From the IMG/VR virus record IMGVR_UViG_3300042521_002634, positions 1-64,000 of that record: a stretch of DNA of 64,000 bases. One strand, 5' to 3'. Numbering within the stretch: position 1 is the stretch's first letter; each line of letters opens with the position of its first letter. Source of the DNA: a virus. Shown in pieces: positions 1-15,286 of the stretch. The notes below the pieces were generated by a model, which saw only the letters and a list, made by a program, of their open reading frames with translations, made no database searches and had not been told where the DNA came from. A program made the translations under genes and the position numbers.

Positions 1-477
1 CTCTGGGTACAAACATGTCTTCCAGTTGTCGTTCAACAAATAGTCAACAGCTGAAAGAAGCTTATTTTTAACTCCAGGACGCGCTGCTTCGAAGTACTCT
101 TTACGTGATGAGTAGAACTGTTTGACAATATTCTCTGGAGCTGTGCTAATTGCGCGCAGACTAGAAAAAATCTGATGCGGAGCCGGAGCGTCGATGAACA
201 TAATCAACTTATCACTGTCTTTAAGCGCGTCTATTACGCTGAGGCCGCCATACGCGTAGTTAGCTGACACGCTTGTGATTGGAGATACACCAGCAACTAC
301 AGCGTCATACTCGTCTAAAAACGCAGCGTCCCATTCAACAGAAGGCGGTTCATGGGTGACGTCGTAGCCTGCTTTCTCAAGGATATCGACAAGAACTCCT
401 GAAAACTGCAGGGTTCTAAGATTAGCGCGAATAGACGACTGCGATGACGTCATTCCCGTAACTAGTACTTTTTTCAT
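1..477 (-). CDS. GT-B glycosyltransferase-like protein, N-terminal part (cut by window edge)
   Basis: About 159 residues are visible, with no stop before the window edge. The protein starts MKKVLVTGMTSSQSS at an ATG that overlaps the stop of the preceding gene (ATGA overlap at 474-477), so the two are translationally coupled. Its fold signature resembles that of the upstream neighbour: an initial beta-strand, then a 'vdILEKAGYDV' helix-strand, then 'YDAVVAGVSPITS', which aligns with 'YDVVWVNLAPLNS' in the neighbour. I infer a tandem paralogue, probably a second DNA-base glycosyltransferase. The catalytic C-terminal half lies outside the window, so activity cannot be judged. Confidence 0.55.
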   Translation of the reverse strand, partial: MKKVLVTGMTSSQSSIRANLRTLQFSGVLVDILEKAGYDVTHEPPSVEWDAAFLDEYDAVVAGVSPITSVSANYAYGGLSVIDALKDSDKLIMFIDAPAPHQIFSSLRAISTAPENIVKQFYSSRKEYFEAARPGVKNKLLSAVDYLLNDNWKTCLYPE

Positions 478-1679
478 GCGACTGTGCCGTCTGGGTTGAG
501 TTTAAGTCCTCTATCTTCAGTAGCTGCTCGTGTAACAATTCTGTTGCAGTGCTCGACGAACGATTGGTACGTTGGCATGTGCGGACGAAGCGCCGCCGAC
601 TGTGCGTCGGCTGCTTCTTTGAGTTCGGCGTCGTTCATAGCCTCAACCTGGCGGATAGTTAGTTTATATGGAGCGCCAAGTGGGTCGCCTTCTCCTTTAT
701 CAGTCACAAGAATTGAACCGACGCGAGCGGCGTACATGAATCGGCTACGCCACCAGCCTGACCCAGCGTGCGGGTATGGCGGCGACAAGATTCCCCAGTG
801 ATCATTGTAGAAGCCGAGAACATCAGCTTCAGTCTGAAAGCGCTGACCGCCGTATTTGCGAATAAGTTTTCTACTGCCTACGATTTCAACTGGCCACGCA
901 GGGCTCTTTCTTTCCAACCATGTGTCGTGAGGCATCAACGCGCCAAGAACCCACGAACGCTTTTTTGTAGCCGCGTCAGCAGGTGTGACTGCTTCAAGGG
1001 TGTCATATATCGTTGAGCTCGGATCAAGGGCCTCGATTGGTCCCATAACGCTAGGCATGCGCTTACGAACTAACGTTCTGTTTCCAAATCCATACATTGG
1101 GCACGCTGGCACCATGCCTGCTGCCCATCGCTTTTCTAAGAAGTTTTTTGCAGACTCGACGATCATATTTTCATAAGGTTTTACAGCATCATCAGTGTCA
1201 AGCGAGTAGTACCTGTCGATGTAGATCTTGCCTACTGCGTTTGGATTAAGAGCAATTGCGCGTGCATATGCGGCTTCAGCGTCAGCTCTGCTGAAATAGG
1301 TTGCGCTTTCATCACCGCGTTCTCCAGTAAGAAGATATTTGTAAATCATTTCTGGGTGACGACCCAAAGCTCTGGCACCGTTAAACACCGCGCTGAACTG
1401 CCAGTCATCAAAAAATCCAACGCATGGGCGACCAGAACCAAGCGCGTACAACGAGCCCATAGCGCCTTGACGGCCATTTAACGAGTTTAAAGGAGCAAGA
1501 TTGACCCACACGACGTCATAAATAGAAAGATCTTCTCCTGGTGTAATTTTACGCCAGTCAACTTCGTGGCCAGATTCTCGTAGTGCTTTAACTATTGAGC
1601 CAGGGACGTCAATTTTTTGAATTGTTCGTCGTTCTGTGTTGATCTGTAGCGCGGTAAAACCTGACATTAGGATTTTCAT
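474..1679 (-). CDS. GT-B glycosyltransferase, T4 beta-glucosyltransferase-like (putative DNA 5hmC glycosyltransferase)
   Basis: A 401-aa protein with a GT-B look. The N-terminal domain opens MKILMSGFTA and contains 'IVKALRESGHEVDW' and 'YDVVWVNLAPLN'. The C-terminal domain holds 'GSGWWRSRFMYAARVGSILV' followed by a helical tail, laid out like the C-terminal half of phage T4 beta-glucosyltransferase. The RBS AAAGGAATCAC precedes the ATG. The gene lies downstream of the SSB-like gene in the replication operon and overlaps a paralogue by 4 nt. Because a dCMP-hydroxymethylase-like enzyme sits 7 kb upstream in the same block, I infer that it adds sugar to 5-hydroxymethylcytosine in phage DNA. It could instead be a tail or cell-surface glycosyltransferase. 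Confidence 0.55.
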   Translation of the reverse strand: MKILMSGFTALQINTERRTIQKIDVPGSIVKALRESGHEVDWRKITPGEDLSIYDVVWVNLAPLNSLNGRQGAMGSLYALGSGRPCVGFFDDWQFSAVFNGARALGRHPEMIYKYLLTGERGDESATYFSRADAEAAYARAIALNPNAVGKIYIDRYYSLDTDDAVKPYENMIVESAKNFLEKRWAAGMVPACPMYGFGNRTLVRKRMPSVMGPIEALDPSSTIYDTLEAVTPADAATKKRSWVLGALMPHDTWLERKSPAWPVEIVGSRKLIRKYGGQRFQTEADVLGFYNDHWGILSPPYPHAGSGWWRSRFMYAARVGSILVTDKGEGDPLGAPYKLTIRQVEAMNDAELKEAADAQSAALRPHMPTYQSFVEHCNRIVTRAATEDRGLKLNPDGTVA

Positions 1680-1696
1680 ATGTGATTCCTTTTCTT

Positions 1697-1795
1697 CTAG
1701 TCGTCGTCTTCTACGCCTCTGTCACCGCAGAACGGGTCGACAGGAGCTGGTGACTTACAAGCACACGGATTGTTGCGTTTTCCAATAATTGTCAT
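1697..1795 (-). CDS. 32-aa cysteine-containing small protein
   Basis: A 33-codon frame preceded by a good Shine-Dalgarno (AAGGAACTT, then ATG). The protein starts MTIIGKRNNPCACKS and ends in a run of Asp, with a CxC motif and a third Cys. It fills the gap between the SSB-like gene and the glycosyltransferase gene in the same orientation. The function is unknown. The three Cys suggest metal binding, but that is a guess. Confidence 0.5.
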   Translation of the reverse strand: MTIIGKRNNPCACKSPAPVDPFCGDRGVEDDD

Positions 1796-1871
1796 AAGTT
1801 CCTTAAGTAGATTAGTGTAAGACGCCGCTCCACCGAAGCAGAGCGACGTCTTACGGGCGTTCCAAGTAAAC

Positions 1872-2417
1872 TTAGAACGGTGCGGTTGGCGCTGGCGCCG
1901 GAGCAGCTGCGGCCGCAGCAGCAGGCGCTGCGGCTGGCGCCGGAGCTGGTGCTGGTGCTGGTGCTGGAGCAGGCGCTGGTGCTGGTGCAGCAGCTGCTGC
2001 GGTTGCAGCAGCCTGAACAGCGTAGTACGCCTTAATTTCGTTCTTTTTCTGACCTTGCCATGTTCGTGATCCAATCTGCGCGCGGAACGATCGACCTTTG
2101 AGGATCTGTTCAATCTGAGCGTTTGTAGGACTCTGAGCAAAGTACTCCCGGTTAAGACCAAGAGAATTCATCTTGCGAAAGAAGATTCCAAGTGCTGTCG
2201 GGTTATCGGTTGAAACAACGAGGTTGTCCCAAACAAGGCGCTTTGCGTGCGCTCCAGTCTGGACTTGCGCCTTTACGGCGAACATCGTCTTTCCTGTTTG
2301 TGTTACTTTTGCTACAGCTTCCACGATCTGAAGATCGTAGTCACCGTCCGGAAGCGGGTCGTAATTTCCGGTGTCTGCTGCCTCTTTGACGAGGTCTCCC
2401 CAGTTTAGGGTATTCAT
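1872..2417 (-). CDS. Single-stranded-DNA-binding-like protein with Ala-Pro-rich tail
   Basis: A 181-aa protein. Residues 1 to about 130 look like the phage DUF669/SSB-like fold ('YDPLPDGDYDLQIVEAVAKV', then 'KGRSFRAQIGSR'). The remaining roughly 45 residues are almost pure Ala/Pro repeats ending TAPF. It lies directly downstream of the Sak4-like ATPase and Cas4-like nuclease, the usual partners of a phage SSB or annealing factor. The Ala-Pro tail is probably a flexible linker that presents the C-terminal tip, as acidic tips do in bacterial SSB, but no acidic tip is present here. Confidence 0.65.
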   Translation of the reverse strand: MNTLNWGDLVKEAADTGNYDPLPDGDYDLQIVEAVAKVTQTGKTMFAVKAQVQTGAHAKRLVWDNLVVSTDNPTALGIFFRKMNSLGLNREYFAQSPTNAQIEQILKGRSFRAQIGSRTWQGQKKNEIKAYYAVQAAATAAAAAPAPAPAPAPAPAPAPAPAAAPAAAAAAAPAPAPTAPF

Positions 2418-2447
2418 TGTCTGTTACCTATCTTTCTGTCTCGTGGT

Positions 2448-3206
2448 TTATTTTTTTGCTTTTGGTTTTTCACCAAACACAATATCAAGCATTCGCTCAA
2501 TACCGAGGTTTTCCTGCTCGACAATTTTGCCGAGTCTACCTTGAACGCGTTCTCCAGCTTCAAACTGGTTAGTTCGCTCAACGTACATACGACGCGCCTT
2601 GTATGGAGGCTGCGTAGGGTCGCCTGTTGAGAATTCTTCAACAGTAATCGCTCCTAAGATGTCGTAGAAATACGGCGCCTGAATTGCAAGTTGACCTTGC
2701 AAGTACGGACGATAACGACCGTCCTGGCTTTGACGTGCCATTGCGGTGAGGACTACAGCCTCGAGCGGAGCAGTCGGGTGCATCGTCAAGTCACGAAGGT
2801 CACGCAATAGCGCTCCCATGTGACGAAGAAGTTCGCCCCATTGCTGCATCTGCATTTGATTTGTACCGGCAATGTTATCCATGCACTTAACTTGTAGTTC
2901 AGACACGGAGTCAATAATCAGTGACTTAAACTGGTGCTTACCCAGCTGCAGCCACTGATACGCCTTAAGCACTGTGTCATACTCTGTCACGTTTACAACG
3001 CATGTATCCCAAGTTCCGTCTGCTACTGGTGGTTCTTCCCGTAGCGGATCCCAGTACTTAACATTGATTGGCAAGAATCTATGTCCGCCTTCAACGTCAA
3101 GCATGAGACGAGGATACGGTGCTGTCACCGCAAATGTTGATTTACCTACCTTAGACTCTCCATAGACCATCATGGTCAAGGAGCGTTGTACTTCACCCAT
3201 TGTCAC
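2448..3206 (-). CDS. Sak4-like RecA-fold ATPase
   Basis: A 252-aa P-loop protein with Walker A 'GESKVGKST' near residue 18 and Walker B-like 'SLIIDSVSEL' near residue 98. This is the layout of the Sak4/AAA_24 phage recombination ATPases. These are shortened RecA-core proteins that work with a phage SSB in single-strand annealing or replication. The GTG start overlaps the stop of the upstream nuclease gene (GTGA), and the SSB-like gene follows directly. Both neighbours are typical of Sak4 loci. Confidence 0.75.
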   Translation of the reverse strand: MTMGEVQRSLTMMVYGESKVGKSTFAVTAPYPRLMLDVEGGHRFLPINVKYWDPLREEPPVADGTWDTCVVNVTEYDTVLKAYQWLQLGKHQFKSLIIDSVSELQVKCMDNIAGTNQMQMQQWGELLRHMGALLRDLRDLTMHPTAPLEAVVLTAMARQSQDGRYRPYLQGQLAIQAPYFYDILGAITVEEFSTGDPTQPPYKARRMYVERTNQFEAGERVQGRLGKIVEQENLGIERMLDIVFGEKPKAKK

Positions 3207-4153
3207 TCACTTCCTTTTATGTCTCTTGATTTGTAGTATTCATACGGGTCGGCGACCTCGTACATCTCAGTGATTGCGTTCTCGGCGGCGCTTCCGTCGT
3301 CGATAAGCGGACAAACACTAAAGAACTGACACTTCCATTTGCAGTCACGACTAGGCCGTGGGTATGCAACGAAGTGATGATCGTGGCCTTCATCAAGCGA
3401 CTTTTTTGTCTCCATCAAGTCTTTGATTGTTCCATGAATTCTTGCCCAAAATGATCGCAATGCGAACACATTATGGCGAACTTCCATTTGTTCGTAGAAC
3501 GGTGGCCTTGCGTTTGCTGAACGCTTGACCTTTTTTAGCATTGTAAAGATGCCACCTTCACTTCGTTCTCCTTCCTTATTTTGCGCTGTCTCCAGCATCA
3601 TATAAGTAAGGATCTGCTCATTCATGTGAGCCATTGAGGTGAAGTCTGTGAATGATCCGCCGACTGTCTTAAAGTCACGGAACATACGCACACCGTCACC
3701 GCGACGACGAACACGCATGTCAAGTTTACCTTGAAGTTCGACTGCACCGTCAAACAAAGGCATGCTGATTATTTCTTCAGTTGAGATCATTTCAAGCTCG
3801 GCATCAATACCGTTCTCTTCTACCCATTGAAGATATCCTTCAAGCATGATGCGCCCAAGTTCGGCTTCACTGTCAAGGTCTACAGTGTCACGGTAACTGT
3901 CGATAAGAGCCTGCTTGTCACGGTCTACGAACATCGAGTGCGCCTCAAGCAGCGGAATACCTTGGCCGTAGTACGCGTCAAGCGCGTTGTGAATTCTAGA
4001 ACCAAGCGCCAGCGCGCCGGTCATGTTTTGAGTCTTTGGTTGAAGACGTCGGTAATACGCCAACCACCACTTGCGTCTGCAGTCTTTGTATGTCTGCAGC
4101 TCGCTGTTAGAGAGCTTGTACGGCATGTTTACTTGTGTGACTGTATCTGTCAT
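3203..4153 (-). CDS. Cas4/RecB-like PD-(D/E)XK exonuclease with probable Fe-S cluster
   Basis: A 316-aa protein. The N-terminal 'TYKDCRRKWWLAYY' supplies one Cys, and the C-terminal 'CKWKCQFFSVC' supplies three. This is the four-cysteine iron-sulfur arrangement of Cas4 and AddB-type nucleases. Between them lie 'LQGKLDMRVRR' and 'FRDFKTVGG', which give the D...(D/E)xK active site. It probably degrades or processes DNA ends during recombination-dependent replication. It sits between the SNF2 helicase, with which it shares a TAATG stop/start overlap, and the Sak4-like ATPase. Confidence 0.75.
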   Translation of the reverse strand: MTDTVTQVNMPYKLSNSELQTYKDCRRKWWLAYYRRLQPKTQNMTGALALGSRIHNALDAYYGQGIPLLEAHSMFVDRDKQALIDSYRDTVDLDSEAELGRIMLEGYLQWVEENGIDAELEMISTEEIISMPLFDGAVELQGKLDMRVRRRGDGVRMFRDFKTVGGSFTDFTSMAHMNEQILTYMMLETAQNKEGERSEGGIFTMLKKVKRSANARPPFYEQMEVRHNVFALRSFWARIHGTIKDLMETKKSLDEGHDHHFVAYPRPSRDCKWKCQFFSVCPLIDDGSAAENAITEMYEVADPYEYYKSRDIKGSE

Positions 4154-5943
4154 TACGCTTTCTCCGATCGCAACATATCTAGAAGTTGCGCCTTATCTCG
4201 AACGATTTGTTCGAAGTTGTCTGCTTTTGTATCTAGCACTTGAATTACACGCTCTTCAATGGTGTCCTCTGTTACGTAGTCCATAATGACGATGCTGTCA
4301 TGAATTTCACTACCAATGCGGTGTACTCTGTCCATTGCTTGTTTATGATCAATAAGTGACCATGGACGTTGAAGCATGACAAGTCGTCTAGCCGCGGTAA
4401 GAGTGATGCCAACGCCTCCAGCCTGAGCAGTGAACAATATCCATTTAATTTTTCCAGACTGGAAGTCATCAACGGCTTGCTGGCGTTCGTCCTCATTTTG
4501 CGCGCCTGTAATTAACCCGTGAGGTATCTTTTTAGCAGTCATCTGAGCACTTAGTAGTTCAATAAGTTGGCGAGATACTGCGCATACAGCGACAGAATCA
4601 TCACCAAAGTCTCCATTTGATATGTCGTCCATAAGCGCGTCTACCTTGCACGATGGCTCTGCAAGAAGCGCTTTTATTTCACCAGTGTCTTCGTCAATAT
4701 CTAACTGCGCGTACGAGCTGGCAAACTGCAGAAGACGTATAGTCTGAGTTAGCGGACTTGGCGCTGTAAGAGCGTCTCCACCTTCAAGTTCAGCAATCAT
4801 AAGATCACGCATTTGCTGATACGCTTTCTTTTGCTTAGTAGACATCTCAACATCACGACGCTCTGTGACTACTGGCGGAAGCCACTGCAACACCTTAGCT
4901 TTGAGCATTCGACGCATTCTTGGATTTATCGCCGCGTAAAATTCTTCTTCCATATGAGGTTTTACGCCAAGAACCATCATTCCGCCAAACGCATTCAACA
5001 TGGTGTTAATCATGCGATCAACCCAGCGAGTCTTGCTTGGCCATTCTTCAGGCGATAGCCAATGAAGAATCGGCCAAAGATCTAAAACGTTATTGGCGAT
5101 AGGTGTACCTGTAAGAGCAAATCTAAATTTTGCGCTGCCTGTTGCCGCCCAAAGTGCACGCGTCTGTTTTGATTTAGGCTCTTTGGAGCGGTGAATTTCG
5201 TCGGCAATGACTGAGTTAAAGTCAATTTTATTAAGTTCACGAATATGAACTTCACAGCGGTTTTCTGTGACCTTTTCATCATGGCCGCCGCAGTCACGGC
5301 AGCGTGCTAACGATACCGAGCCATAAGAAGCCAGCCGTGAGTGACCTCGAAGAGATTCCCAGTTAATGACAAATACGTCAACATCTTCCTCAAACTGTTT
5401 CCGTCGTTGCATTGCTGAACCTTTGACTACCTGCACTTTTACATCTGGCCACCATCTGGCGAATTCTCTTTCCCAGTTCTTTTTAAGCGTGTTTGGGCAA
5501 ACAACAAGCGCGGGGAACACTTTTTCACCGCGGCTGCGAAGTTCTTTAAGCGCCGTTATTGCTTGTGCTGTTTTCCCAAGACCAGGCTCATCAGCAAGAA
5601 GTGCCCTGTGTGCCGTAGCAAGAAACTGAACACCAGCGCGTTGGTGAGGAAACAGCGTGTCTTCACCGTCAATTGCTTCAACAGAACGAAGAGCGTTAGC
5701 AGGCGCAACGCGTGTCAATAGCTCATTTGTCGCCCAGTCAGTTAACCGCTGGCCAATGACAAGTTCTGACTTAAAAGTTGATCGCAACGCTAGACACGTT
5801 GCCCAGCCGACAGGTGTTTTCCACGTTTGCTCGCTAGACGACCACGTAGCGCCTGGGATACTCTTGCACAGCTCTTTGTAACGCCATTCAGCGTTAATAA
5901 TTATGTATCTACCCGTGCTATCGAGTTCTGCTTGTACTGTCAC
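4153..5943 (-). CDS. SNF2-family (SF2) DNA helicase/ATPase
   Basis: A 596-aa protein with the SF2/SNF2 motif series: Q-region 'LFPHQRAGVQFLA', motif I 'DEPGLGKT', motif II 'VIADEIHRSK', motif III 'ALTGTPIANN' and motif VI 'QAMDRVHRIGS'. A zinc-binding insert (CRDCGG with a distal Cys and His) sits near residue 205. In phages these enzymes remodel replication and recombination intermediates. It is followed without a gap by the Cas4-like nuclease. The preceding 90-bp gap carries a long inverted repeat, so a promoter or operator for the replication block may lie there. Confidence 0.85.
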   Translation of the reverse strand: MTVQAELDSTGRYIIINAEWRYKELCKSIPGATWSSSEQTWKTPVGWATCLALRSTFKSELVIGQRLTDWATNELLTRVAPANALRSVEAIDGEDTLFPHQRAGVQFLATAHRALLADEPGLGKTAQAITALKELRSRGEKVFPALVVCPNTLKKNWEREFARWWPDVKVQVVKGSAMQRRKQFEEDVDVFVINWESLRGHSRLASYGSVSLARCRDCGGHDEKVTENRCEVHIRELNKIDFNSVIADEIHRSKEPKSKQTRALWAATGSAKFRFALTGTPIANNVLDLWPILHWLSPEEWPSKTRWVDRMINTMLNAFGGMMVLGVKPHMEEEFYAAINPRMRRMLKAKVLQWLPPVVTERRDVEMSTKQKKAYQQMRDLMIAELEGGDALTAPSPLTQTIRLLQFASSYAQLDIDEDTGEIKALLAEPSCKVDALMDDISNGDFGDDSVAVCAVSRQLIELLSAQMTAKKIPHGLITGAQNEDERQQAVDDFQSGKIKWILFTAQAGGVGITLTAARRLVMLQRPWSLIDHKQAMDRVHRIGSEIHDSIVIMDYVTEDTIEERVIQVLDTKADNFEQIVRDKAQLLDMLRSEKA

Positions 5944-5980
5944 CTACACAATCCTTCCGTCATTTCGTATGTCTATATTA

Positions 5981-6033
5981 CCATATACTAAGACACTTTA
6001 CTGCAAGTTTGCAGATATTTTCTTAGTATATGG
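5981..6033. promoter_or_regulatory. Nested inverted repeat between resolvase and helicase genes
   Basis: Perfect 13-bp arms, CCATATACTAAGA (5981-5993) and TCTTAGTATATGG (6021-6033), enclose a second perfect palindrome, CTGCAA/TTGCAG (6001-6014). The segment is AT-rich, begins at the base next to the resolvase stop, and lies about 40 bp upstream of the helicase start. It could be an operator, a transcript-end hairpin with no long U-run, or a replication-related site. Confidence 0.5.
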
Positions 6034-6504
6034 CTATCTAAGCAATTTCATTGGTTTCCAACCAGTCTTTACTAAGCGAAGAAGCCCGTGTCTTATTGCG
6101 TCAAGAGCGTGACCTTCTCCACCTCTATGCCAGTACTCTAGCTTTTTAAGAGCGTCGTTAGAGAACATCTTCTTCGCGTCTGATGGAGATTGAAAAATCA
6201 ATTCATCAGGGTCAATTCCGTTGTCAAGCATAATGTACTTCAAAATACCAATCTGCTCCAAACTATACGGAGCTTGCGAGTTCCTTACTGTCTGCGCATT
6301 TATAATAAACCTCTCGCATACGATCTCTACTTTAGAGTCTGTTGCTTTAGCATATTTAAGCGTTTCGTAGATAGGCAAGTGGTACTCTTTCATTTGGTAC
6401 TCACCAGACTTCTCAAGCACAGGCTCTCCGCCTGGCGTAATTGAGAAAGTGCAGATACCGCTTGCTTTACCCGGATCTACTGAAAGAATAATTCTGTCGC
6501 CCAT
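6034..6504 (-). CDS. RuvC-like Holliday junction resolvase
   Basis: 156 aa from the ATG at 6504, which overlaps the stop of the polymerase gene (TAATG) and has a GGGGAG Shine-Dalgarno 9 nt upstream. RNase H-fold acidic residues are visible: 'ILSVDPGKASGI' (first Asp), 'EIVCERFII' (Glu) and 'GHALDAIRHGL' (C-terminal Asp). This is the RuvC-like nuclease typical of phages, acting on branched DNA before packaging. An in-frame ATG at 6522 exists but lacks a good RBS. Confidence 0.75.
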   Translation of the reverse strand: MGDRIILSVDPGKASGICTFSITPGGEPVLEKSGEYQMKEYHLPIYETLKYAKATDSKVEIVCERFIINAQTVRNSQAPYSLEQIGILKYIMLDNGIDPDELIFQSPSDAKKMFSNDALKKLEYWHRGGEGHALDAIRHGLLRLVKTGWKPMKLLR

Positions 6505-8327
6505 TAGTACTTTTCTCCCCATGTTTCAAGTGGACCATCAATACCTGCAGTTAGCGGAACTGCCCAGCCGTCTGAAGTTGTCATGCACTGCTTTACAATT
6601 CTTTTTATTTCTTCAGCGTCTTTTCGCGGCGCGTTTAGCACGATTTCGTCGTGCACTGGAACGATCAACAGTTCTGTCAAGTCTGCTTGGTCGAGTTTCA
6701 CAAGATTTGATTTGAACACTTCAGCAGCTCCACCTTGAATAAGGTAATTGACAAGAGTGTATACACGATCTTCGTCGCACGGCAGTCGACGGCCTGTCCA
6801 TGTGTAGACATAACCTTGACCTTCGTCGCGGAGCCGACGCATTCCGGCGTCTTCAACTTGCTTTTGAAAGTACGACATTCCAGGAAAACGCAGGTCAAAA
6901 GCGTCAGATACAGCGCGCATTTGCGGTTCTGCAACGCCTGCTGTAATCGCCTGTTTTGCAACTCCAGCGCCATAGAGTCTTCCGTAGACCGTGCCTTTTA
7001 TCAGTCCACGACGCTTGTCTGAGCGTTCCATTGTCGGGTCTGCATATATTTCACGACCAATCTCAGTAAAGGGGTCAGACCCGATTGAGTCAGCGCGGTT
7101 AAACAGATCAATCAAATTGTTGTCATTTGAAAGACTTGCGAACATTCTAAATTCGACTTGGTCTAAGTCTGATGTAACAATTACGTGATTTTCATCTTTT
7201 GGAAGAAACGCCCTGCGCACTACATCGTCGCCTTTTGGCAGTGTCTGCAGCGCCGGGTTTTGTATTGACATGCGTGAAGTTCTAGCACCTAGAGTCTTCA
7301 CAGACGGGTGAACAAACCCATTGACATTTTCGCTTAAAAAGTTAGAAAAATAGGTATTGGCAAGTTTGTCGGCCTTGCGCTGTTTTAGAACTATGTCAGC
7401 AAGTTGCTTGACTTCATCGTTGCCGTTGATTTTAAGAATCTTCAATTGGTCTTTAGTGCACGATTTCTGCCCTGTTGGCGTAAACTCTGTGATCTCTGCT
7501 CCGATACTCTCGAACAAGCGAACTAGTTGTTGATTGCTAGTGATTGACGCGCCACCGTACGTCTGCTTGGCCCAGGTTTTTACTGACTCGGTGTACGTCG
7601 TAAGTTCTTCGTATTTCTTTTTTGAGTACTCAAGATCTACTCGTGCGCCATTCAGCTCCATACGAGTGACGATGCGACGAGTCTGCATTTCAAGTTCATA
7701 AGGCTTGTGGTACGGCCCATCTGGACCACACTGCTTATAGAACATTTCCCACAGCCGTGTAGTTAGCACGCAGTCTAGCGCGCCGTACGACCAGTAAGGT
7801 TTGAAGTCTACTGGAACTGTTCCCCAAGTCCAGCCGTTCTTAGCAAGTTCTTCATCAAGTGTGTTTTGTAGAGTTACAGCGCGGCCATCGACGTGCAAAG
7901 CTGCAAGTCGTTTAAGCGCTCCTGAGCCTAGTGGATCGATGATGTGCGCCATAATCATCGTGTCGTGTGCGCGGTGCCACGGCATCTTCCAACGCGATTG
8001 AACATCAAACCAACGAGCTTCAAACGCAATGTTGTGACAGATCAGCGGTCCGTCAAATTTATCCATTGCTTCATAGAAAACACCTGCCCATTCTCCCCAT
8101 GGAATTGACCAACCTTGTTCTCCATCACCAACCTGCACTAAGCGCAGTCGACCATGCCATGGCGAGAACGCGTGCTCTCTAGGATTGCCAGGCAGTTCGC
8201 CAGTTTCTGTGTCTACAGACAGCGCGTCGTATGGGCGACGCTGGCTAAGCCAGTGTATGAAATCACTTGCCTTTTGTGAGCTATCAACCAAATGAAGCTG
8301 CACGTTTGCAAGATTATCAGTCGACAT
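6504..8327 (-). CDS. polA: Family A DNA polymerase with 3'-5' exonuclease domain
   Basis: A 607-aa replicative polymerase. Exonuclease motifs: 'LSVDTETGELPG' (Exo I, DxE), 'LICHNIAFEARWFD' (Exo II) and 'YGALDCVLTTRLWE' (Exo III). Polymerase motifs: A 'TSDLDQVEFRMFAS', O-helix 'RRGLIKGTVYGRLYGAG' and C 'VPVHDEIVLNAP'. The aromatic residue of the O-helix is Tyr, as in T7 DNA polymerase, rather than the Phe of E. coli Pol I. No 5'-nuclease domain is present. The gene overlaps dCMP deaminase by about 10 nt and is coupled to the RuvC-like gene. Confidence 0.93.
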   Translation of the reverse strand: MSTDNLANVQLHLVDSSQKASDFIHWLSQRRPYDALSVDTETGELPGNPREHAFSPWHGRLRLVQVGDGEQGWSIPWGEWAGVFYEAMDKFDGPLICHNIAFEARWFDVQSRWKMPWHRAHDTMIMAHIIDPLGSGALKRLAALHVDGRAVTLQNTLDEELAKNGWTWGTVPVDFKPYWSYGALDCVLTTRLWEMFYKQCGPDGPYHKPYELEMQTRRIVTRMELNGARVDLEYSKKKYEELTTYTESVKTWAKQTYGGASITSNQQLVRLFESIGAEITEFTPTGQKSCTKDQLKILKINGNDEVKQLADIVLKQRKADKLANTYFSNFLSENVNGFVHPSVKTLGARTSRMSIQNPALQTLPKGDDVVRRAFLPKDENHVIVTSDLDQVEFRMFASLSNDNNLIDLFNRADSIGSDPFTEIGREIYADPTMERSDKRRGLIKGTVYGRLYGAGVAKQAITAGVAEPQMRAVSDAFDLRFPGMSYFQKQVEDAGMRRLRDEGQGYVYTWTGRRLPCDEDRVYTLVNYLIQGGAAEVFKSNLVKLDQADLTELLIVPVHDEIVLNAPRKDAEEIKRIVKQCMTTSDGWAVPLTAGIDGPLETWGEKY

Positions 8328-8799
8328 CTTTATCCTTGACTAGCGTGACAACTAAACTGCACTTTTCCATAAACGCGACGACATCATATGGTCTACGATG
8401 CATGTCAGCCTTGCGCAGTCTAGACACTACTCTGCGTATTCCTGAGTTTGAAATAAGCTTAGCGCACTGCATGCACGGCACACTTGTTATGTAGATAGTT
8501 CCATTCTCGCTTCGTGATCTATCAACGTACAGAAGCGCGTTTGCCTCTGCGTGAACAGCAGGGCAAGCATCATATAAGTTGTCAAGTGGGCTTAAACCTT
8601 TAGCGCGATCGCACCAGTTGATGCAGTCGCCTGACTCTGGCCAACTAGCGGCTGGTCCATTGTACCCAGTGGCAACAATGTGTTGATCATGAGAAACGAT
8701 CACTGCGCCCATCTGCGCCCGCGTGCATCGAGATCGCGCAGACACGATGTCAGCGACGGACAACCATGTATCGTCCCAAGACAACCTTTTAAGCGTCAT
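8317..8799 (-). CDS. dCMP deaminase
   Basis: A 160-aa zinc-dependent deaminase with 'AVHAEANALLY' (HAE motif) and 'SVPCMQCAKLI' (PCxxC motif), plus an extra His/Cys-containing insert typical of phage dCMP deaminases. It converts dCMP to dUMP. Together with the hydroxymethylase-like enzyme encoded 180 nt upstream, it controls the fate of dCMP. It starts at ATG 8799, one base before the stop of the 59-aa gene. Confidence 0.9.
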   Translation of the reverse strand: MTLKRLSWDDTWLSVADIVSARSRCTRAQMGAVIVSHDQHIVATGYNGPAASWPESGDCINWCDRAKGLSPLDNLYDACPAVHAEANALLYVDRSRSENGTIYITSVPCMQCAKLISNSGIRRVVSRLRKADMHRRPYDVVAFMEKCSLVVTLVKDKDVD

Positions 8800-8979
8800 T
8801 TACTCTTCTTCCTTGTTGTTTTCTTCGATTATAGAGCCAACTGTGCCGGTCAGTATTTTTGCAACAAGTTCTAACGCCTCTTTGCGACTGAATCCTGCAC
8901 GTCTAAACTCTGAAAACACTTCATGCATCTGTACAGCAACGCTTCTAAGTGGGCTTGGATAGTCGTCGTCTTCTTTCAC
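8800..8979 (-). CDS. 59-aa helical protein after the TS-like gene
   Basis: GTG start with an excellent Shine-Dalgarno (AAGGAGAGCAA). The GTGA overlaps the stop of the TS-like gene. The protein starts MKEDDDYPSP and contains 'FSRKEALELVAKIL', a short amphipathic helical motif seen in small phage and plasmid proteins of unknown role. Its position between two dCMP-using enzymes suggests an accessory role in that pathway, but there is no direct evidence. Confidence 0.6.
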   Translation of the reverse strand: MKEDDDYPSPLRSVAVQMHEVFSEFRRAGFSRKEALELVAKILTGTVGSIIEENNKEEE

Positions 8980-9839
8980 TTGCTCTCCTTTTTGAAGTTC
9001 TTCTCTATAGCCGAAATCATCGCGTCAGTGTACCACTTTTGATCTGGAGTTAGCCGTTGACGGATGTACTCATCAAACACCGCGTCAAGCGCATGACGGG
9101 CTTTTGCCTCTACTTGCGTCCATGAAGACCCAGTTATTGGCGGTATCGATTCAATAGAGCTTCGCTCTACATGATGTAGATCTTCAGCTACTTCGTAGTG
9201 CTGCTCGTACAAATGCAACGAGCCGACATGATGTCCGTACGTCCCTGGCTCAATTCCAAGTATAGACGCCATGGCGATTTGTACTCTAGTAAACTGAAAA
9301 AAGTCATATGCAGCGCCAAGCCAGACGTCATTGGATCTCATGTAGACGCTCATGTTAAGTCTGTTATTGCGAATTCTAAACTGATGAAGAATAGTGCAAG
9401 GGTAGTCGCGTTTGTTTGATTGCAAGTCTAATTCTGGGTCCCAGATAGTTACAACTGCTTGCCGCGTACTAGGATCGTTTTTAAGTCTGTCTAGCGCCTT
9501 AGCGTACTGTGTGTGCGTGCGTAGACCGTACGCGCCGTGAAACAGTCCGTTGTCTTCTGCAAAATTTTTGAACTGCGGACCGACGGCTATGACTGTCTTT
9601 GGATAGCTTACGCCAGCAATTAGCTGACAAGCTTCGACTGCGCCAATGCCAGGCACCGCGCCGCGGCTGACGCCAACAGGCAGAGTATTATAGACGTTAT
9701 CAATGAAGACAGTGGCATCTTCAATTTCTTTAGTTTGCTGCCCGCGCGGAGCAACTTCTTTGCCATACTTAAGAACCCAGTTAACAAGATCGACGTAGCC
9801 GTTCACTCCGTCTTCAACACGAATTACCGTAGTGTCCAT
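8976..9839 (-). CDS. Thymidylate-synthase-fold pyrimidine C5 enzyme, probably dCMP 5-hydroxymethylase
   Basis: A 287-aa TS-superfamily protein. The nucleophile is Cys148 in 'DYPCTILHQFRI'. The phosphate and folate region reads 'MRSNDVWLGAAYDFFQF' and the distal motif 'GSLHLYEQH'. Aligned to E. coli TS, the base-discriminating Asn177 of 'LPFNIAS' is replaced here by Asp179. TS Asn-to-Asp is the known switch from dUMP to dCMP. Phage T4 dCMP hydroxymethylase uses Cys148 and Asp179, the same numbers. I therefore infer production of 5-hydroxymethyl-dCMP rather than dTMP. Neighbours are a dNMP-kinase-like fusion upstream and dCMP deaminase downstream, with glycosyltransferases further along the block. 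An ordinary thymidylate synthase is the alternative. Confidence 0.75.
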   Translation of the reverse strand: MDTTVIRVEDGVNGYVDLVNWVLKYGKEVAPRGQQTKEIEDATVFIDNVYNTLPVGVSRGAVPGIGAVEACQLIAGVSYPKTVIAVGPQFKNFAEDNGLFHGAYGLRTHTQYAKALDRLKNDPSTRQAVVTIWDPELDLQSNKRDYPCTILHQFRIRNNRLNMSVYMRSNDVWLGAAYDFFQFTRVQIAMASILGIEPGTYGHHVGSLHLYEQHYEVAEDLHHVERSSIESIPPITGSSWTQVEAKARHALDAVFDEYIRQRLTPDQKWYTDAMISAIEKNFKKESK

Positions 9840-10834
9840 GACTCTTCTGCTCTCCCTTCAGCCGCTGCTGCTATAGCAGCGCCATACGCTTTTTTGTCGT
9901 AGTGATGAAATCTTTTGACATACTGCGGATGCGGCATGACTGTCATGTTTCTGGATTCAATTCCAGACAGCAGCAGTCCTTTTTCTGCCATGCGCCCTAG
10001 AGCTACTATTCTCGGGCGGCCTAAGGCTTCCCATAAACTGAACAGACGTGAGCCGTAGAACTCGTTCGCGTTTACTATGCCGTATTGTTTCCAAACTGTA
10101 TGCGGAATGCTACTAAGTAAAAAGTCACCAGAGTTACTGTTCACTGGCATAAAAGGAAGAATAGTCTCATTTCCATACTTTAAAGTTACGTTGCGCTGAT
10201 CACCTACTATAAGCGCAGTAGGGTTTGGAGCTCCTATATATTCCGGGTACTCAGCAAGTTTTGCTGAAGCCTCAGCGATGCGTTCAGCCTTGTTGATTAT
10301 CTCCGTAGCAATCTCACCTACGTCATTAAAATTATATGGATGCGGTTGAATTTTACCAGCAAGGCGCGCGGTAGCGCCAGCTCCAAACGAATAGTATTCA
10401 AGAACTTGTGCCAGCTCATCTGTGTTGACAAAATCATCGCCGCGAGAATTGATTCTTTCAATTAGCACTTCTAGTGGCTGATACAGCCAAAATTGTGCAA
10501 CTCCACGTGACATAAGAAATAGCTCTACCCAGCGCCAACCAGATCGACCGAGAAGCCCGTACGAGTCGTTGCACGTATGAGGGCGCTTGATAGGTGCGTA
10601 GGTAACTTCTCCCCAGTGCCATCGGTCTGCAATCGCAAGACGGGACGTCCAGTCTTGCTTTTCAATTGAAATCGCGTATTCATTTAGCACCCAACGGAGC
10701 GTCTCTTCTTCTGGCTTACCTTTATGAAATTCCGTGACGCTTCTCTCAGGGAATCTTGCCTGAATCTGCGACTTAATTTCAGCAATAAGTGACGACTTAC
10801 CAGAGCCGTCAGCGCCTTCAATCACTATAAACAT
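9824..10834 (-). CDS. Nucleotide (dTMP-like) kinase fused to uracil-DNA-glycosylase-like domain
   Basis: A 336-aa two-domain protein. Residues 1 to about 195 resemble thymidylate kinase: P-loop 'IEGADGSGKSSLI' and DR-type 'LAIADRWHWGE'. Residues about 205-336 show UDG-superfamily hallmarks in order: 'TALIVGDQRN', 'LPFMPVNSNSGDFLLSSI', 'GIVNANEF', 'PRIVALGRMAEKGL' and 'VMPHPQYVKRF' (compare the HPS motif). The kinase part likely phosphorylates a modified dNMP made by the adjacent TS-like enzyme. The UDG-like part may bind or sense bases or nucleotides. The fusion is unusual. The start has only a weak RBS. Confidence 0.6.
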   Translation of the reverse strand: MFIVIEGADGSGKSSLIAEIKSQIQARFPERSVTEFHKGKPEEETLRWVLNEYAISIEKQDWTSRLAIADRWHWGEVTYAPIKRPHTCNDSYGLLGRSGWRWVELFLMSRGVAQFWLYQPLEVLIERINSRGDDFVNTDELAQVLEYYSFGAGATARLAGKIQPHPYNFNDVGEIATEIINKAERIAEASAKLAEYPEYIGAPNPTALIVGDQRNVTLKYGNETILPFMPVNSNSGDFLLSSIPHTVWKQYGIVNANEFYGSRLFSLWEALGRPRIVALGRMAEKGLLLSGIESRNMTVMPHPQYVKRFHHYDKKAYGAAIAAAAEGRAEESWTLR

Positions 10835-10880: not shown

Positions 10881-11351
10881 CTAAGGAATGACTTCTACCT
10901 TATAAATCTTTTCTATTCCTTTGTCTAGAGAGGCTGCGTCATCCAATAGACGCTGAGCAACGTTTGTTAAATAGCGAGCACCGCCGTTATCGTATTTGTA
11001 CAATGCTTCAAGAACAGCGTTAGGATCTTCGCTAACTTGAGCCCAGTATCTGTCTTTTTCTGGAAATATAAGGCCTGCTTCAAATGATGGACGACAGTCT
11101 TCACAGGGTATCATTCCGTCTTTAGCGTGCTCAGGTTTTAGCTCCTGTAAACCGTATCGTTTGACTAAATGACAAGCAGCGCCGTGGTACACAACGGATA
11201 CTCCAATTCGAGAAAGAACATAAGAGCCGTTCTCAGTTTTGTAAAGCGCGAACTCAATCCAACGTGTTGAACCGCTTCTCCACGAGGAAGATTTGCCTAA
11301 GAGCGTACCACTAAACTGAAGTGTTCTTGAGCCGTCTTTTACTTGAATCAT
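10881..11351 (-). CDS. Conserved phage-type hypothetical protein with CxxC motif
   Basis: A 156-aa protein starting MIQVKDGSRTLQFSG. It has a beta-rich first half, then 'GAACHLVKRYGL' and 'MIPCEDCRPSF', where an isolated Cys and a CxxC could bind zinc, and a helical C-terminus. It stands alone between the dioxygenase and the kinase fusion. I do not recognise the family. Confidence 0.6.
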   Translation of the reverse strand: MIQVKDGSRTLQFSGTLLGKSSSWRSGSTRWIEFALYKTENGSYVLSRIGVSVVYHGAACHLVKRYGLQELKPEHAKDGMIPCEDCRPSFEAGLIFPEKDRYWAQVSEDPNAVLEALYKYDNGGARYLTNVAQRLLDDAASLDKGIEKIYKVEVIP

Positions 11352-11457: not shown

Positions 11458-12813
11458 CTATGTTCCGTTTTTTGTGCCGCCTAGGTGGTTGTACCACTTT
11501 ACGGCGGCGTATCGCATTCCGCTCGCTACCGGCTCGACACAGTGCATGTTCTCAAAGCCCGAGCTAAACACGACAATCTTGCCAGCGCCGCGAGTAATCC
11601 TGACGTTTTTATGAGTAAACACTAAATCTCCACCAGTGTAGCCGTCATTTAGAAAAGCAGAGACAGAGACAACTCTAGGAAACTCTAAGCAGTCATCAAC
11701 GTGATTATGGAAAGAGCCACCGCGCTCGTATCTTGTAAGCTGCCAGTTTGTCGACTGCAGCTCTCGTATGCTGTACATTTTTCTAAAGTCTTTGATGATT
11801 GGAGCCATGCCAGCTTCAAGACTTTCGTATAGTCTACGTATTGGGTCATGAACATGACACGACAGCTGGGTACTATTGATAAACTTAACGTAGCAGGTTC
11901 TAGCTTGGTAGTTAACAGTCGGATCTCGCTCCTCACTAAGCACCTGGGCAGGCTTCCAAAGCTTGTAGCACGAATTCTGCGCAAGACCCTTAAGAGTTTG
12001 AGCAGACTGTTTTGATATTTGGTATTGCACTATTCCTGGAGCAATCACAGTCTTTTCTTCAACAGACATGTCAACAAGTTCTGGCTCGTCGTCTGTGTAC
12101 TCTCCAAGAATTTTGTCGTAAAGTGACAAAACGCCAGAGTAGTCATGACACGAGCAGACAGGTTGATTGATCGGTGCGTCGGGCATTGGAATGTACCGGT
12201 TTCTGTTAAAAAACCTAATGTCGCCGTCACTTCCATACCGCCCTATGTCATTTCCTCGAGTTTTCTTTTGAATCCAATGATCAGGCCGAGTAAAATGCAT
12301 AAACACCACAGTAGTGTGCACATCAGAGCGCCTAGAAGGATATGCAGGACGCGCGTGCGTATGCTGCTGCCCTGCAAAGATTATTCCTTCATTTTCATTT
12401 TGCTCGTATTCTTTTTCTTCTACAATTAGGTTCCACTTTGCGGTATTTTCAATTGTTAAATCAACTGTTGTCTGTGTTCCATTTTGATCTACGTGCTCCC
12501 ATAAGTGCGGAATACAGCCATTGATTGACTGATACCTGACAACAAAGAAATACGCTTTAAGCAAGGTGTCATCATTGAATACTTCTCTAGCTTTTTTCAA
12601 AGAAAATTCTTCAATGTCCTTAGAAAAACTGATTGGAGATTCCCATCGTCCCAGCATCGTATGGTAGTAGCTAGGGCCGTCTGGTCCGAGATTGAGGTCG
12701 TTTACGCTTTTCTTAACACGAGAAAACATTTCGTCTGGGAAGAATGATTTAATTACTACAGGTTCGCTGATTAGCGGATTTGGAAGCTCAAATTCAATTT
12801 TTCCATTTCGCAT
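11458..12813 (-). CDS. Tandem 2-oxoglutarate/Fe(II) dioxygenase (two prolyl-4-hydroxylase-like domains)
   Basis: 451 aa from the ATG at 12813, one base after the upstream stop. Two double-stranded beta-helix domains are visible. The N-terminal one has 'PHLWEHVDQNG' (HxD) and 'FAGQQHTHARP' as distal His. The C-terminal one has 'SFHNHVDDCLEFPRVVSVSA' (HxD), 'GGDLVF', distal 'ENMHCVEPV' and the 2OG-binding 'RYAAVKWYN'. Both retain the HxD...H triad, so both could be active. Such enzymes hydroxylate proteins or bases. The substrate is unknown. A frame extension to TTG 12828 is possible. Confidence 0.75.
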   Translation of the reverse strand: MRNGKIEFELPNPLISEPVVIKSFFPDEMFSRVKKSVNDLNLGPDGPSYYHTMLGRWESPISFSKDIEEFSLKKAREVFNDDTLLKAYFFVVRYQSINGCIPHLWEHVDQNGTQTTVDLTIENTAKWNLIVEEKEYEQNENEGIIFAGQQHTHARPAYPSRRSDVHTTVVFMHFTRPDHWIQKKTRGNDIGRYGSDGDIRFFNRNRYIPMPDAPINQPVCSCHDYSGVLSLYDKILGEYTDDEPELVDMSVEEKTVIAPGIVQYQISKQSAQTLKGLAQNSCYKLWKPAQVLSEERDPTVNYQARTCYVKFINSTQLSCHVHDPIRRLYESLEAGMAPIIKDFRKMYSIRELQSTNWQLTRYERGGSFHNHVDDCLEFPRVVSVSAFLNDGYTGGDLVFTHKNVRITRGAGKIVVFSSGFENMHCVEPVASGMRYAAVKWYNHLGGTKNGT

Positions 12814-12814
12814 A

Positions 12815-13051
12815 TCACCACTTGCCAAGCGGGCACTTTGCGTTTAGTAGTCGTGTTTTTAGATTCATAAAACAACCGCACTCAAGACACTGCTTAGTGA
12901 CGCTTAAAAAGCGCTCGCAGCCTTGACACGTAGTGTATCGTGCTGCTGCAAGCTCTTCGCTAGATCTGGGAGCGTTTCGATTGATTAAATCTAGTGGAGT
13001 AACTCCGCCATTTTTTTCTTTAAACAGTTGCCAAGGAGTTTTTTCAGACAT
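12815..13051 (-). CDS. Small zinc-ribbon protein
   Basis: 78 aa from the ATG at 13051, with AGGAAG 8 nt upstream. The C-terminal half has a conserved-looking ribbon, 'CQGCERFLSVTKQCLECGC' followed by 'KTRLLNAKCPLGKW', giving six Cys able to bind one or two zinc ions. Proteins with this ribbon occur widely in phages next to dioxygenase or tail genes. It overlaps the upstream hypothetical gene by 8 nt and abuts the dioxygenase, which suggests co-expression with it. Confidence 0.7.
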   Translation of the reverse strand: MSEKTPWQLFKEKNGGVTPLDLINRNAPRSSEELAAARYTTCQGCERFLSVTKQCLECGCFMNLKTRLLNAKCPLGKW

Positions 13052-13999: not shown

Positions 14000-15286
14000 C
14001 TACTGACACGAGTACACACCCTTCACGCCAACGCAAACGCCACAACATGGACCAATGTCGCCACAATCTGGACAAGGAGGTGTAACTGGTGGAGTAACAG
14101 GAGGTGTGACTGGAGGTGTGACTGGAGGTGTAACTGGTGGAGTAACAGGAGGTGTGACTGGAGGTGTGACTGGAGGTGTGACTGGAGGTGTGCATATCGC
14201 GCCCCAACCTGGTTCAATACATTGACCTGTTGTTACACAGCCATCTTCACCAAGTGAAACTTGTAGTTCCGAGCAATATCTGTACTCGCCGGGAATATCC
14301 GGTGGAACCACAGGTGGTGTCACAGGTGGTGTCACAGGTGGTGTCACAGGTGGTGTCACAGGTGGTGTCACAGGTGGTGTGCTAGATCCGCAGCCGGCGA
14401 TGCAGTACTTTATCGTCTCAGACTCACCGTACATATAAGCGAATAAGGTGCCGTCATCCGATCCAGTCGTGTCAGTCGGGTCAAAGTAAAATGAGATAGC
14501 GTACGGAGTGCCGGTCTGGCTTTCTTCAACGATAAACGGACGAAAATAGTATATGCCCTTTGAGTCAGTGCTGGCGTTGTCGGCGGGATCGCGTACTTCT
14601 ATGTTCTGCGCAACTACTTCGCCGTTTCCAATATTAACTCCTGCCGCAGATATTGCGCCGGTCCCGTCATTTCCTGACGGGTCTAAGATCATCGCTTGGT
14701 CGCCAGGATTGGTAGGAACAGTTCGAAGACTGCCGTCACCGTACACCGGGTCGAACACCCAGTCGCCAATCTGACCGGTAGTGGCGATCACTTCAATGCC
14801 GTTAAGTATACCTACGGTAATGTTGCCCGCGTCAAGGTTAGACACTGTGATCACACTTGCATCAATTGTTCCGGCTGTTATCTTGTTAGCGCTAATGCTA
14901 GCAAGTGCGTTGTCTCCTAGTTCAAATCCACCCCACGCGCTGCCTGTCCATCGATAAAACCTATTGTCATCATCAGTATCAAACCACAGGTCGCCGGTAG
15001 TGTGACTTGATCCCGATGGAGCTGTTGTTTGACGATATACCTTATTTTTTCCGTCGGCTGTAGTCTGCGCCGCGTCGGCCGCGTCCTGTGCGTCCTCAAT
15101 TGATCCTGAAACCTCAGTGCTGAGAATTGAAACTGTTACAGCGCCTTCTTCTAGTTTAGGTTCTCCTACGCTTCTGTCAGCGACTTTTCTAACAGACGGG
15201 CGTCGCGCCATACCGCGAACTCGACGATCAAGCCGGCTAACGTAGTTGCCAAGTCTGCGAAGACTTCTACGACGGTTACTCGCCAC
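14000..15286 (-). CDS. Tail fibre / minor tail protein with PPVT repeats and Cys-rich tip
   Basis: 428 aa from the GTG at 15286, chosen because GGGAGG lies 9 nt upstream and the start is only 8 nt inside the preceding gene. A basic N-terminus is followed by a collagen-free stalk with 'GDNALASISANKITAGTI', a pattern typical of phage tail tip and fibre proteins that set up trimeric stalks. The C-terminal third holds two Pro-Pro-Val-Thr repeat blocks around a Cys-containing domain, and ends in a Cys-rich cap with nine Cys. It is probably a receptor-contacting fibre whose Pro-rich arms are rigid spacers. Confidence 0.7.
   Translation of the reverse strand: MASNRRRSLRRLGNYVSRLDRRVRGMARRPSVRKVADRSVGEPKLEEGAVTVSILSTEVSGSIEDAQDAADAAQTTADGKNKVYRQTTAPSGSSHTTGDLWFDTDDDNRFYRWTGSAWGGFELGDNALASISANKITAGTIDASVITVSNLDAGNITVGILNGIEVIATTGQIGDWVFDPVYGDGSLRTVPTNPGDQAMILDPSGNDGTGAISAAGVNIGNGEVVAQNIEVRDPADNASTDSKGIYYFRPFIVEESQTGTPYAISFYFDPTDTTGSDDGTLFAYMYGESETIKYCIAGCGSSTPPVTPPVTPPVTPPVTPPVTPPVVPPDIPGEYRYCSELQVSLGEDGCVTTGQCIEPGWGAICTPPVTPPVTPPVTPPVTPPVTPPVTPPVTPPVTPPVTPPCPDCGDIGPCCGVCVGVKGVYSCQ
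14076..14191 (-). repeat. 12-bp tandem repeat (PPVT), block 1
   Basis: In-frame tandem units of about 12 bp (plus-strand GGTGTGACTGGA and close variants), encoding Thr-Pro-Pro-Val. Synonymous variation between units shows that the array is old enough to drift but is kept in frame. It is coding and not a CRISPR array. Confidence 0.85.
14312..14381 (-). repeat. 12-bp tandem repeat (PPVT), block 2
   Basis: About six nearly identical units (plus-strand GGTGGTGTCACA) encoding the same Pro-Pro-Val-Thr peptide but with a different codon phase use from block 1. This suggests an independent or more recent expansion. Confidence 0.85.

Follow-up and report, generated by a model that had tools for sequence, protein, structure and literature searches.

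The window analysed here is the first 64,000 b of the 98,426-b IMG/VR record IMGVR_UViG_3300042521_002634, a freshwater phage whose numerous relatives include some cultured on Gordonia and Micrococcus. Its left end carries a replication operon with all genes on the minus strand, in the order 156-amino-acid (aa) protein, kinase fusion, thymidylate synthase (TS)-fold enzyme, dCMP deaminase, PolA, RuvC, helicase, exonuclease, Sak4/RecA, single-strand DNA binding protein (SSB), a first glycosyltransferase (GT1), and the start of a second (GT2) (Table 1). A first-pass annotation had proposed that these genes form a route from dCMP to DNA containing sugar-linked 5-hydroxymethylcytosine (hmC), and we found support for it, with a candidate gene for every step. 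Based on gene content, gene order, diagnostic residues, folds, and co-conservation, we consider it likely that the phage replaces its genomic cytosine with glycosylated hmC, through a T4-type route on a different genomic backbone.

Table 1. Genes of the predicted modification module and its neighbors in the window, by position
Feature	Position	Strand	Evidence or remarks
GT2, second glycosyltransferase, first 159 aa	1..477	-	Open reading frame (ORF) cut at contig end; full 341 aa in L005:19363-20388, L087:7203-8228
GT1, GT-B glycosyltransferase, 401 aa	474..1679	-	AlphaFold + Foldseek; fold like T4 beta-glucosyltransferase (BGT)
DUF669 SSB	1872..2417	-	PF05037 4.9e-8; PHROG SSB 6e-11
Sak4/RecA-like recombinase, syntenic replication gene	2448..3206	-	phrog_124, 5e-33
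PD-(D/E)XK exonuclease, syntenic replication gene	3203..4153	-	Pfam 5.8e-20
DNA helicase, SNF2-like by reading, syntenic replication gene	4153..5943	-	DSL-LC01 gene in orthologous position annotated DNA helicase
RuvC-like resolvase, syntenic replication gene	6034..6522	-	Annotation of DSL-LC01 ortholog
PolA-type DNA polymerase	6504..8327	-	Annotation of DSL-LC01 ortholog
dCMP deaminase	8317..8799	-	Pfam 9.9e-19; PHROG 5e-37; HAE + PCxxC zinc motif
Predicted dCMP 5-hydroxymethylase, TS fold, 287 aa	8976..9839	-	E69, R126, D145, C148, S169, N170, D179, H209, Y211
dNMP-kinase-like + C-terminal uracil-DNA glycosylase (UDG)-superfamily-like domain	9824..10834	-	PHROG 'thymidylate kinase' 9e-17; P-loop, DRWHWGE, RxxxRGD
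Conserved 156-aa protein, cluster of 74 loci	10881..11351	-	5' of kinase in most relatives

The TS-fold enzyme was aligned with T4 gp42, SPO1 gp29 (dUMP hydroxymethylase), MilA (CMP hydroxymethylase), and E. coli TS. The T4 and SPO1 sequences were taken from their records and MilA from the PDB match, and the E. coli sequence was entered by hand. The fold given in the first-pass annotation agrees with a Pfam thymidylate synthase match (1.2e-23), and the two residues on which that annotation relied, Cys148 and Asp179, are both present in the protein. As it had claimed, their numbers are identical in the T4 dCMP hydroxymethylase, and the same is true of Asp145. The window enzyme has Glu69, Arg126, Asp145, Cys148, Ser169, and Asp179 in the alignment, where position 179 is Asn in both the SPO1 dUMP hydroxymethylase and E. 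coli TS, position 145 is Leu in E. coli TS, and position 170, Asn in the window enzyme, is Cys in TS. Scanning IMG/VR for the hydroxymethylase yielded 116 relatives, 80 of which were kept. Asp145, Cys148, Ser169, Asn170, and Asp179 were invariant in 82/82 relatives, so the Cys148/Asp179 pair is not due to chance.

These residues have known roles in related enzymes. Asp179 recognizes cytosine, and Asp145 activates the water molecule from which the hydroxyl derives; T4 dCMP hydroxymethylase uses Asp179, and Asn at this position lowers kcat up to ~ 3600-fold (PMC6400193). In the MetaGPA study, Asp at EcTS position 177 marks cytosine-modified viral contigs and is taken as a known determinant of cytosine use, and the TS on such contigs is accompanied by dCMP deaminase and pyrophosphohydrolase (PMC8670742). 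The closest PDB match of the window enzyme was MilA, the cytidylate hydroxymethylase (6e-19, better than every TS), which belongs with BcmA to the CMP 5-hydroxymethylases of mildiomycin and related pathways. MilA shares the Asp at the base-reading position and the Asp three residues before the Cys, yet it has Lys133 and Ala176 where the window enzyme family has Arg126 and Ser169. The Ser/Arg and Ala/Lys pairs correspond to a choice of deoxyribose or ribose (PMC5175136). Because Asp145 and Asp179 set the enzyme apart from TS, Asp179 from the dUMP hydroxymethylase, and Arg126 and Ser169 from MilA, we make the specific prediction of a dCMP hydroxymethylase rather than a generic TS-fold enzyme. 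No homologue that would indicate a prophage or host link was found in bacterial and archaeal genomes.

No dCTPase had been recognized in the first-pass annotation. Three contigs match the window at 100.000% identity in overlaps of 19.8 kb (L005), 9.9 kb (L004), and 7.7 kb (L087), and extend past its end. Beyond the contig end they contain the full GT2 (341 aa) and a 155-aa PF08761 protein and, after these, small genes (DUF6378 among them), a PF00145 protein of 421 aa, a homologue of T4 endonuclease V, and a WhiB protein. The 155-aa protein (L005:20395-20859), the next gene after GT2, matched dUTPase_2 (PF08761, 2.5e-11) and dimeric dUTPases in the PDB (1e-5). A single hhalign comparison with T4 gp56 dCTPase gave 97% probability and an E-value of 1.4e-11 over 95 columns, reaching the last residue of gp56, with matching blocks IDDELAEV/IDDEFREL, VDILHFVANI/VDIFHFVLNM, and RQIKGY/RQDNGY. 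This is the predicted dCTPase that had been missed. Both it and the PF00145 gene are absent from the window's own 98,426-b record because the contig of that record stops short. The far end of an overlapping contig (L367), which has no overlap with the window's record, holds tail and structural genes and no more modification genes.

The dCMP deaminase and the dNMP-kinase-like fusion of the first-pass annotation were both recovered by profile matches and motifs (Table 1). The closest solved structure to the kinase fusion is YorR (2axp, 2e-9); in a model with pLDDT 93, the first half matches YorR and thymidylate kinases. The C-terminal domain (~ residues 198–336) is weakly UDG-superfamily, with PF03167 detected in 13 of 22 members (best 7.6e-4), and a sequence-profile structure search with this domain returned only chance matches (chaperonins, E 0.09). 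We consider the fusion a candidate hm-dCMP kinase. Fusions of an NMP kinase with a UDG-superfamily-like domain were widespread in the clade. The 156-aa protein had no Pfam match and no convincing or informative PHROG match, and is possibly a further component of the module. A 2-oxoglutarate-Fe(II) oxygenase (11458-12828, minus strand) was evaluated as a TET-like step and set aside, as it is P4H-type and present in only 8 of ~ 80 loci.

Two tandem GT-B genes had been reported in the window, one of them T4 BGT-like. GT1 is real and complete; the second gene is cut by the contig end and was completed only through the overlapping contigs. GT1 and GT2 are mutually homologous (20% identity), neither matched a Pfam family convincingly or any PDB sequence, and a PDB profile search with GT1 gave nothing at E<=1. 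The BGT likeness holds for the predicted fold but not for the sequence: membership of GT1 and GT2 in the T4 BGT family by sequence was rejected (hhalign E 0.03, probability 1.7%), leaving fold support only. The AlphaFold model of GT1 (pLDDT 88.5, pTM 0.86) was compared with 350,542 PDB chains using Foldseek. T4 BGT (1qkj) ranked first, with an E-value of 1.7e-6 and TM scores of 0.50/0.56, other BGT entries were found at ranks 4, 6, 7, 8, and 10, and T4 alpha-glucosyltransferase (AGT) was found at ranks 15 and 25. Given a TM score of ~ 0.5, we regard GT1 as a GT-B enzyme of the BGT type, not a BGT orthologue. Asp91 of GT1 is invariant in 57 GT1/GT2 sequences and, in a by-eye comparison, follows the same strand as the BGT base Asp100 (VGFFD vs YLFTD100). 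A GT-A glycosyltransferase (Glyco_tranf_2_4) was also seen inserted between the TS and dCMP deaminase genes in L010, L020, L021, L039, and others, and is a candidate for an extra sugar step.

The segment between the SSB gene, its upstream boundary, and the dCTPase gene was compared across the 72 unique loci that span both. Every variant showed the SSB-GT-GT2-dCTPase arrangement (72/72), and the gene adjoining the dCTPase was always GT2-type. The part before GT2 was exchangeable: GT1 alone in 58 loci, two GT1-matching ORFs in one more, a GT1-type gene with UDP-galactopyranose mutase in three, and once a GT1-type gene with no detected mutase. In the remaining nine loci, Pfam matches indicated another GT, an aminoglycoside phosphotransferase (APH)-like kinase, a HAD protein, and a sugar nucleotidyltransferase (NTase). 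An example is L285:9001-13280, where an unassigned GT, APH-like kinase, HAD phosphatase, and nucleotidyltransferase are followed by GT2. A constant GT2 with a swapped first GT and sugar-activation genes suggests that the sugars differ among relatives, perhaps with galactofuranose among them. The window phage has the GT1 variant with neither the mutase nor the APH-HAD-NTase genes in the sequence at hand, so its sugar donor is probably made by the host.

An alternative is that the genome contains hmC while the GTs act elsewhere, on the cell envelope or a virion protein, leaving the DNA unglycosylated. Phage GTs often modify host surface polymers, the GTs found here have no sequence link to DNA glucosyltransferases, and the UDP-galactopyranose mutase of phage DSL-LC01 was interpreted by its authors as a cell-wall gene (PMC10611076), as was that of an Agrobacterium phage (PMC6630229). 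We nonetheless consider this alternative unlikely, given that SSB and dCTPase flank the GT genes within a replication operon at all 72 loci, and that the best solved fold match of GT1 is a DNA-modifying enzyme, with AGT also matched. GT1-family genes also occur in T4-like phages, directly after a UDP-galactopyranose mutase gene, in Aeromonas phage phiAS4 (PF03275 5.9e-54; L368:5895-8077), which encodes a T4-type dCMP hydroxymethylase, and in Erwinia phage FBB1 (L377:2937-5062). A mutase-GT1 pair in two unrelated hmC-type lineages fits a UDP-galactofuranose donor better than the published cell-wall reading, and we propose the phiAS4 and FBB1 pairs as a candidate galactofuranosyl-hmC system. No account of galactofuranose on DNA, or of modified DNA in Gordonia phages, turned up in literature searches.

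The PF00145 gene (L087:9648-10913, past the left end of the window) follows the dCTPase in all 43 loci with enough downstream sequence, and among loci found from the PF00145 gene itself, the dCTPase lies ~ 1.3 kb upstream in 50/52. Orthologs are present in L293-L366, DSL-LC01, and Gordonia phages. The close family in annotated phages comprises 15 records (13 Gordonia, DSL-LC01, and Kurnik), and those checked all have an Asp-type hydroxymethylase. The catalytic Cys (PC), the motif VI Glu, and both motif VIII Arg of C5-methyltransferases (C5-MTases) are kept in 47/47 aligned sequences, while the motif I FxGxG and the motif II acidic residue are missing from the family. In a low-identity alignment to an M.HhaI reference entered by hand, the S-adenosylmethionine (SAM)-contact positions were changed: Phe18 to Asn (46/47, one gap), Glu40 to Gly (47/47), Trp41 to Thr or Ser, and Asn304 to Lys (47/47).

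Judged by these residues, the protein would be either an ordinary diverged methyltransferase or a repurposed enzyme acting on hmC. If it is ordinary, residual free cytosine would be argued for. In a rival scheme, the TS-fold enzyme serves nucleotide metabolism, with partial or no replacement and methylation of the remaining cytosines. The constant linkage and the intact catalytic Cys, Glu, and Arg favor such a scheme. We give partial or no replacement slightly less credence than GTs acting elsewhere, as a dedicated dCTPase alongside a dCMP deaminase implies that dCTP is depleted, and virtually all of the 47 sequences have other residues at the usual SAM-binding positions. In vitro, C5-methyltransferases are known to take off or exchange the hydroxymethyl of hmC. 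We raise, as a speculative possibility, that the enzyme has lost its SAM site and adds to the cytosine C6 of hmC or sugar-hmC in DNA, forming an exocyclic methylene so that a group is exchanged or coupled at the 5-CH2. With the exchangeable sugar cassettes, including UDP-galactofuranose supply, this could produce a family of undescribed hypermodified cytosines.

The residues of the TS-fold enzyme bear on two further readings. It could be an XP12-like dCMP methylase giving 5-methylcytosine DNA, since TS N-to-D mutants yield 5-methyl-dCMP, according to work cited in PMC8670742. This is very unlikely: Asp145 and Asn170 are hydroxymethylase features kept in 82/82 relatives, and 5-methylcytosine DNA would leave the GTs without a hydroxyl on the base. 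That the genes are an ordinary cassette for dTMP supply, as the database annotations 'thymidylate synthase' and 'thymidylate kinase' would have it, is the least credible option, because the dUMP-reading Asn is replaced by the invariant Asp179, the residue with which T4 dCMP hydroxymethylase works and whose change to Asn is so costly there (PMC6400193).

Some observations do weigh against replacement of cytosine by glycosylated hmC. The homology of the GTs to BGT is structural only (TM ~ 0.5, 12% identity), and a C5-MTase-like gene linked in 43/43 loci is odd if no free cytosine C5 is left. The kinase could serve dTMP only. Glycosyl-hmC DNA is predicted here from genes.

Under the route that we favor, the dUTPase_2-family dCTPase would convert dCTP to dCMP, part of which the deaminase would divert to dUMP. 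The TS-fold enzyme would use dCMP and methylene-tetrahydrofolate to make hm-dCMP, with Cys148 attacking C6, Asp179 recognizing the base and protonating N3, and Asp145 activating the water that supplies the hydroxyl. Next, the kinase fusion and a host kinase would raise hm-dCMP to hm-dCTP for insertion by PolA, which would also need to copy modified DNA. After replication, both GT-B enzymes would place sugar on the hydroxymethyl group. The strongest candidate for core glycosylation is GT2, which is kept in every variant, and the first GT with its exchangeable sugar-activating genes may set the sugar or add a second one. The individual activities, which GT acts first, the sugar donated, the presence and completeness of sugar-hmC in the virion, and protection from restriction or CRISPR are all predictions of this scheme.

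The gene order of kinase, hydroxymethylase, deaminase, PolA, RuvC, helicase, exonuclease, RecA, SSB, and GTs is repeated in ~ 80 contigs. It is essentially the same in the cultured Gordonia phages Phendrix/GodonK, GMA2, and Forza, with no annotated deaminase in Forza. The Phendrix/GodonK hydroxymethylase is 38% identical to the window enzyme. In the Gordonia phages, the GT, dUTPase, and C5-MTase genes cluster a few kb off, past a tRNA cluster that separates the two halves of the module, and there is a third GT. Micrococcus phage Kurnik has RuvC, helicase, exonuclease, and RecA, followed by GTs, pyrophosphohydrolase, and C5-MTase, but its dCMP hydroxymethylase is T4-type. The module is shared by Actinomycetia phage DSL-LC01 (OQ999401) and the Gordonia phages GodonK, Phendrix, Forza, and GMA2, where its genes carry no annotation beyond thymidylate synthase, hypothetical protein, glycosyltransferase, and methyltransferase; DSL-LC01 differs in having UDP-galactopyranose mutase between its GTs. 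Elsewhere in the window, a structural protein (14000-15313, minus strand) contains long PVTPPVTPP tandem repeats close to its C-terminus. Beyond the window, at record positions 82498-84358 (L002/L003), a radical-SAM-like protein adjoins a possible glycosyltransferase-like protein, and no tie to the module was seen.

The enzyme steps are those of the T4 glucosyl-hmC pathway (gp42 dCMP hydroxymethylase, gp56 dCTPase, gp1 kinase, cd deaminase, and alpha-/beta-gt), with a dCTPase homologous to gp56 and a GT1 fold nearest BGT. Unlike T4, the window phage has a PolA/actinobacteriophage-type backbone, a hydroxymethylase nearer MilA than gp42, GTs with no detectable sequence homology to BGT or AGT, a kinase of the TMK/YorR type with a UDG-like domain, a linked C5-MTase-like gene, and exchangeable sugar cassettes. 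For RB69 arabinosyl-hmC and the pentose-cytosine of Shewanella phage Thanatos (PMC6024577, PMC12838424), a phage nucleotidyltransferase, an aminoglycoside-phosphotransferase-like kinase, and a phosphatase were proposed to activate an unusual sugar that is attached to a cytosine derivative. The APH-HAD-NTase cassette of nine relatives, which the window phage itself lacks, has the same domain content. No sequence homologues of its APH, HAD, and NTase proteins were found in annotated phages, so the parallel is one of domain content alone. The MetaGPA contigs (PMC8670742), from viral DNA with modified cytosine, likewise combine an Asp-type TS with dCMP deaminase and pyrophosphohydrolase, but there an hmC carbamoyltransferase finishes the base, in place of the glycosyltransferases of the window phage.

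What is new is most likely a T4-like glycosyl-hmC gene set in actinobacterial phages with exchangeable sugar modules. The exchangeable first GT and sugar-activation genes and the linked C5-MTase-like gene had both gone unnoticed in the first-pass annotation. With several relatives already in culture on Gordonia and Micrococcus, the prediction is testable at once. Because the sugar-activation genes vary around an unchanging core GT, the clade offers a natural series for inferring the sugar from the genes, and it could yield DNA glycosyltransferases with new donors, such as galactofuranose or a pentose. The UDP-galactopyranose mutase of phages, until now linked to the cell wall, would be reassigned, and the role of a C5-methyltransferase with no SAM site in an hmC genome becomes a question. 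If the prediction holds, T4-style cytosine replacement would extend to a large actinobacterial phage group unrelated to T4.

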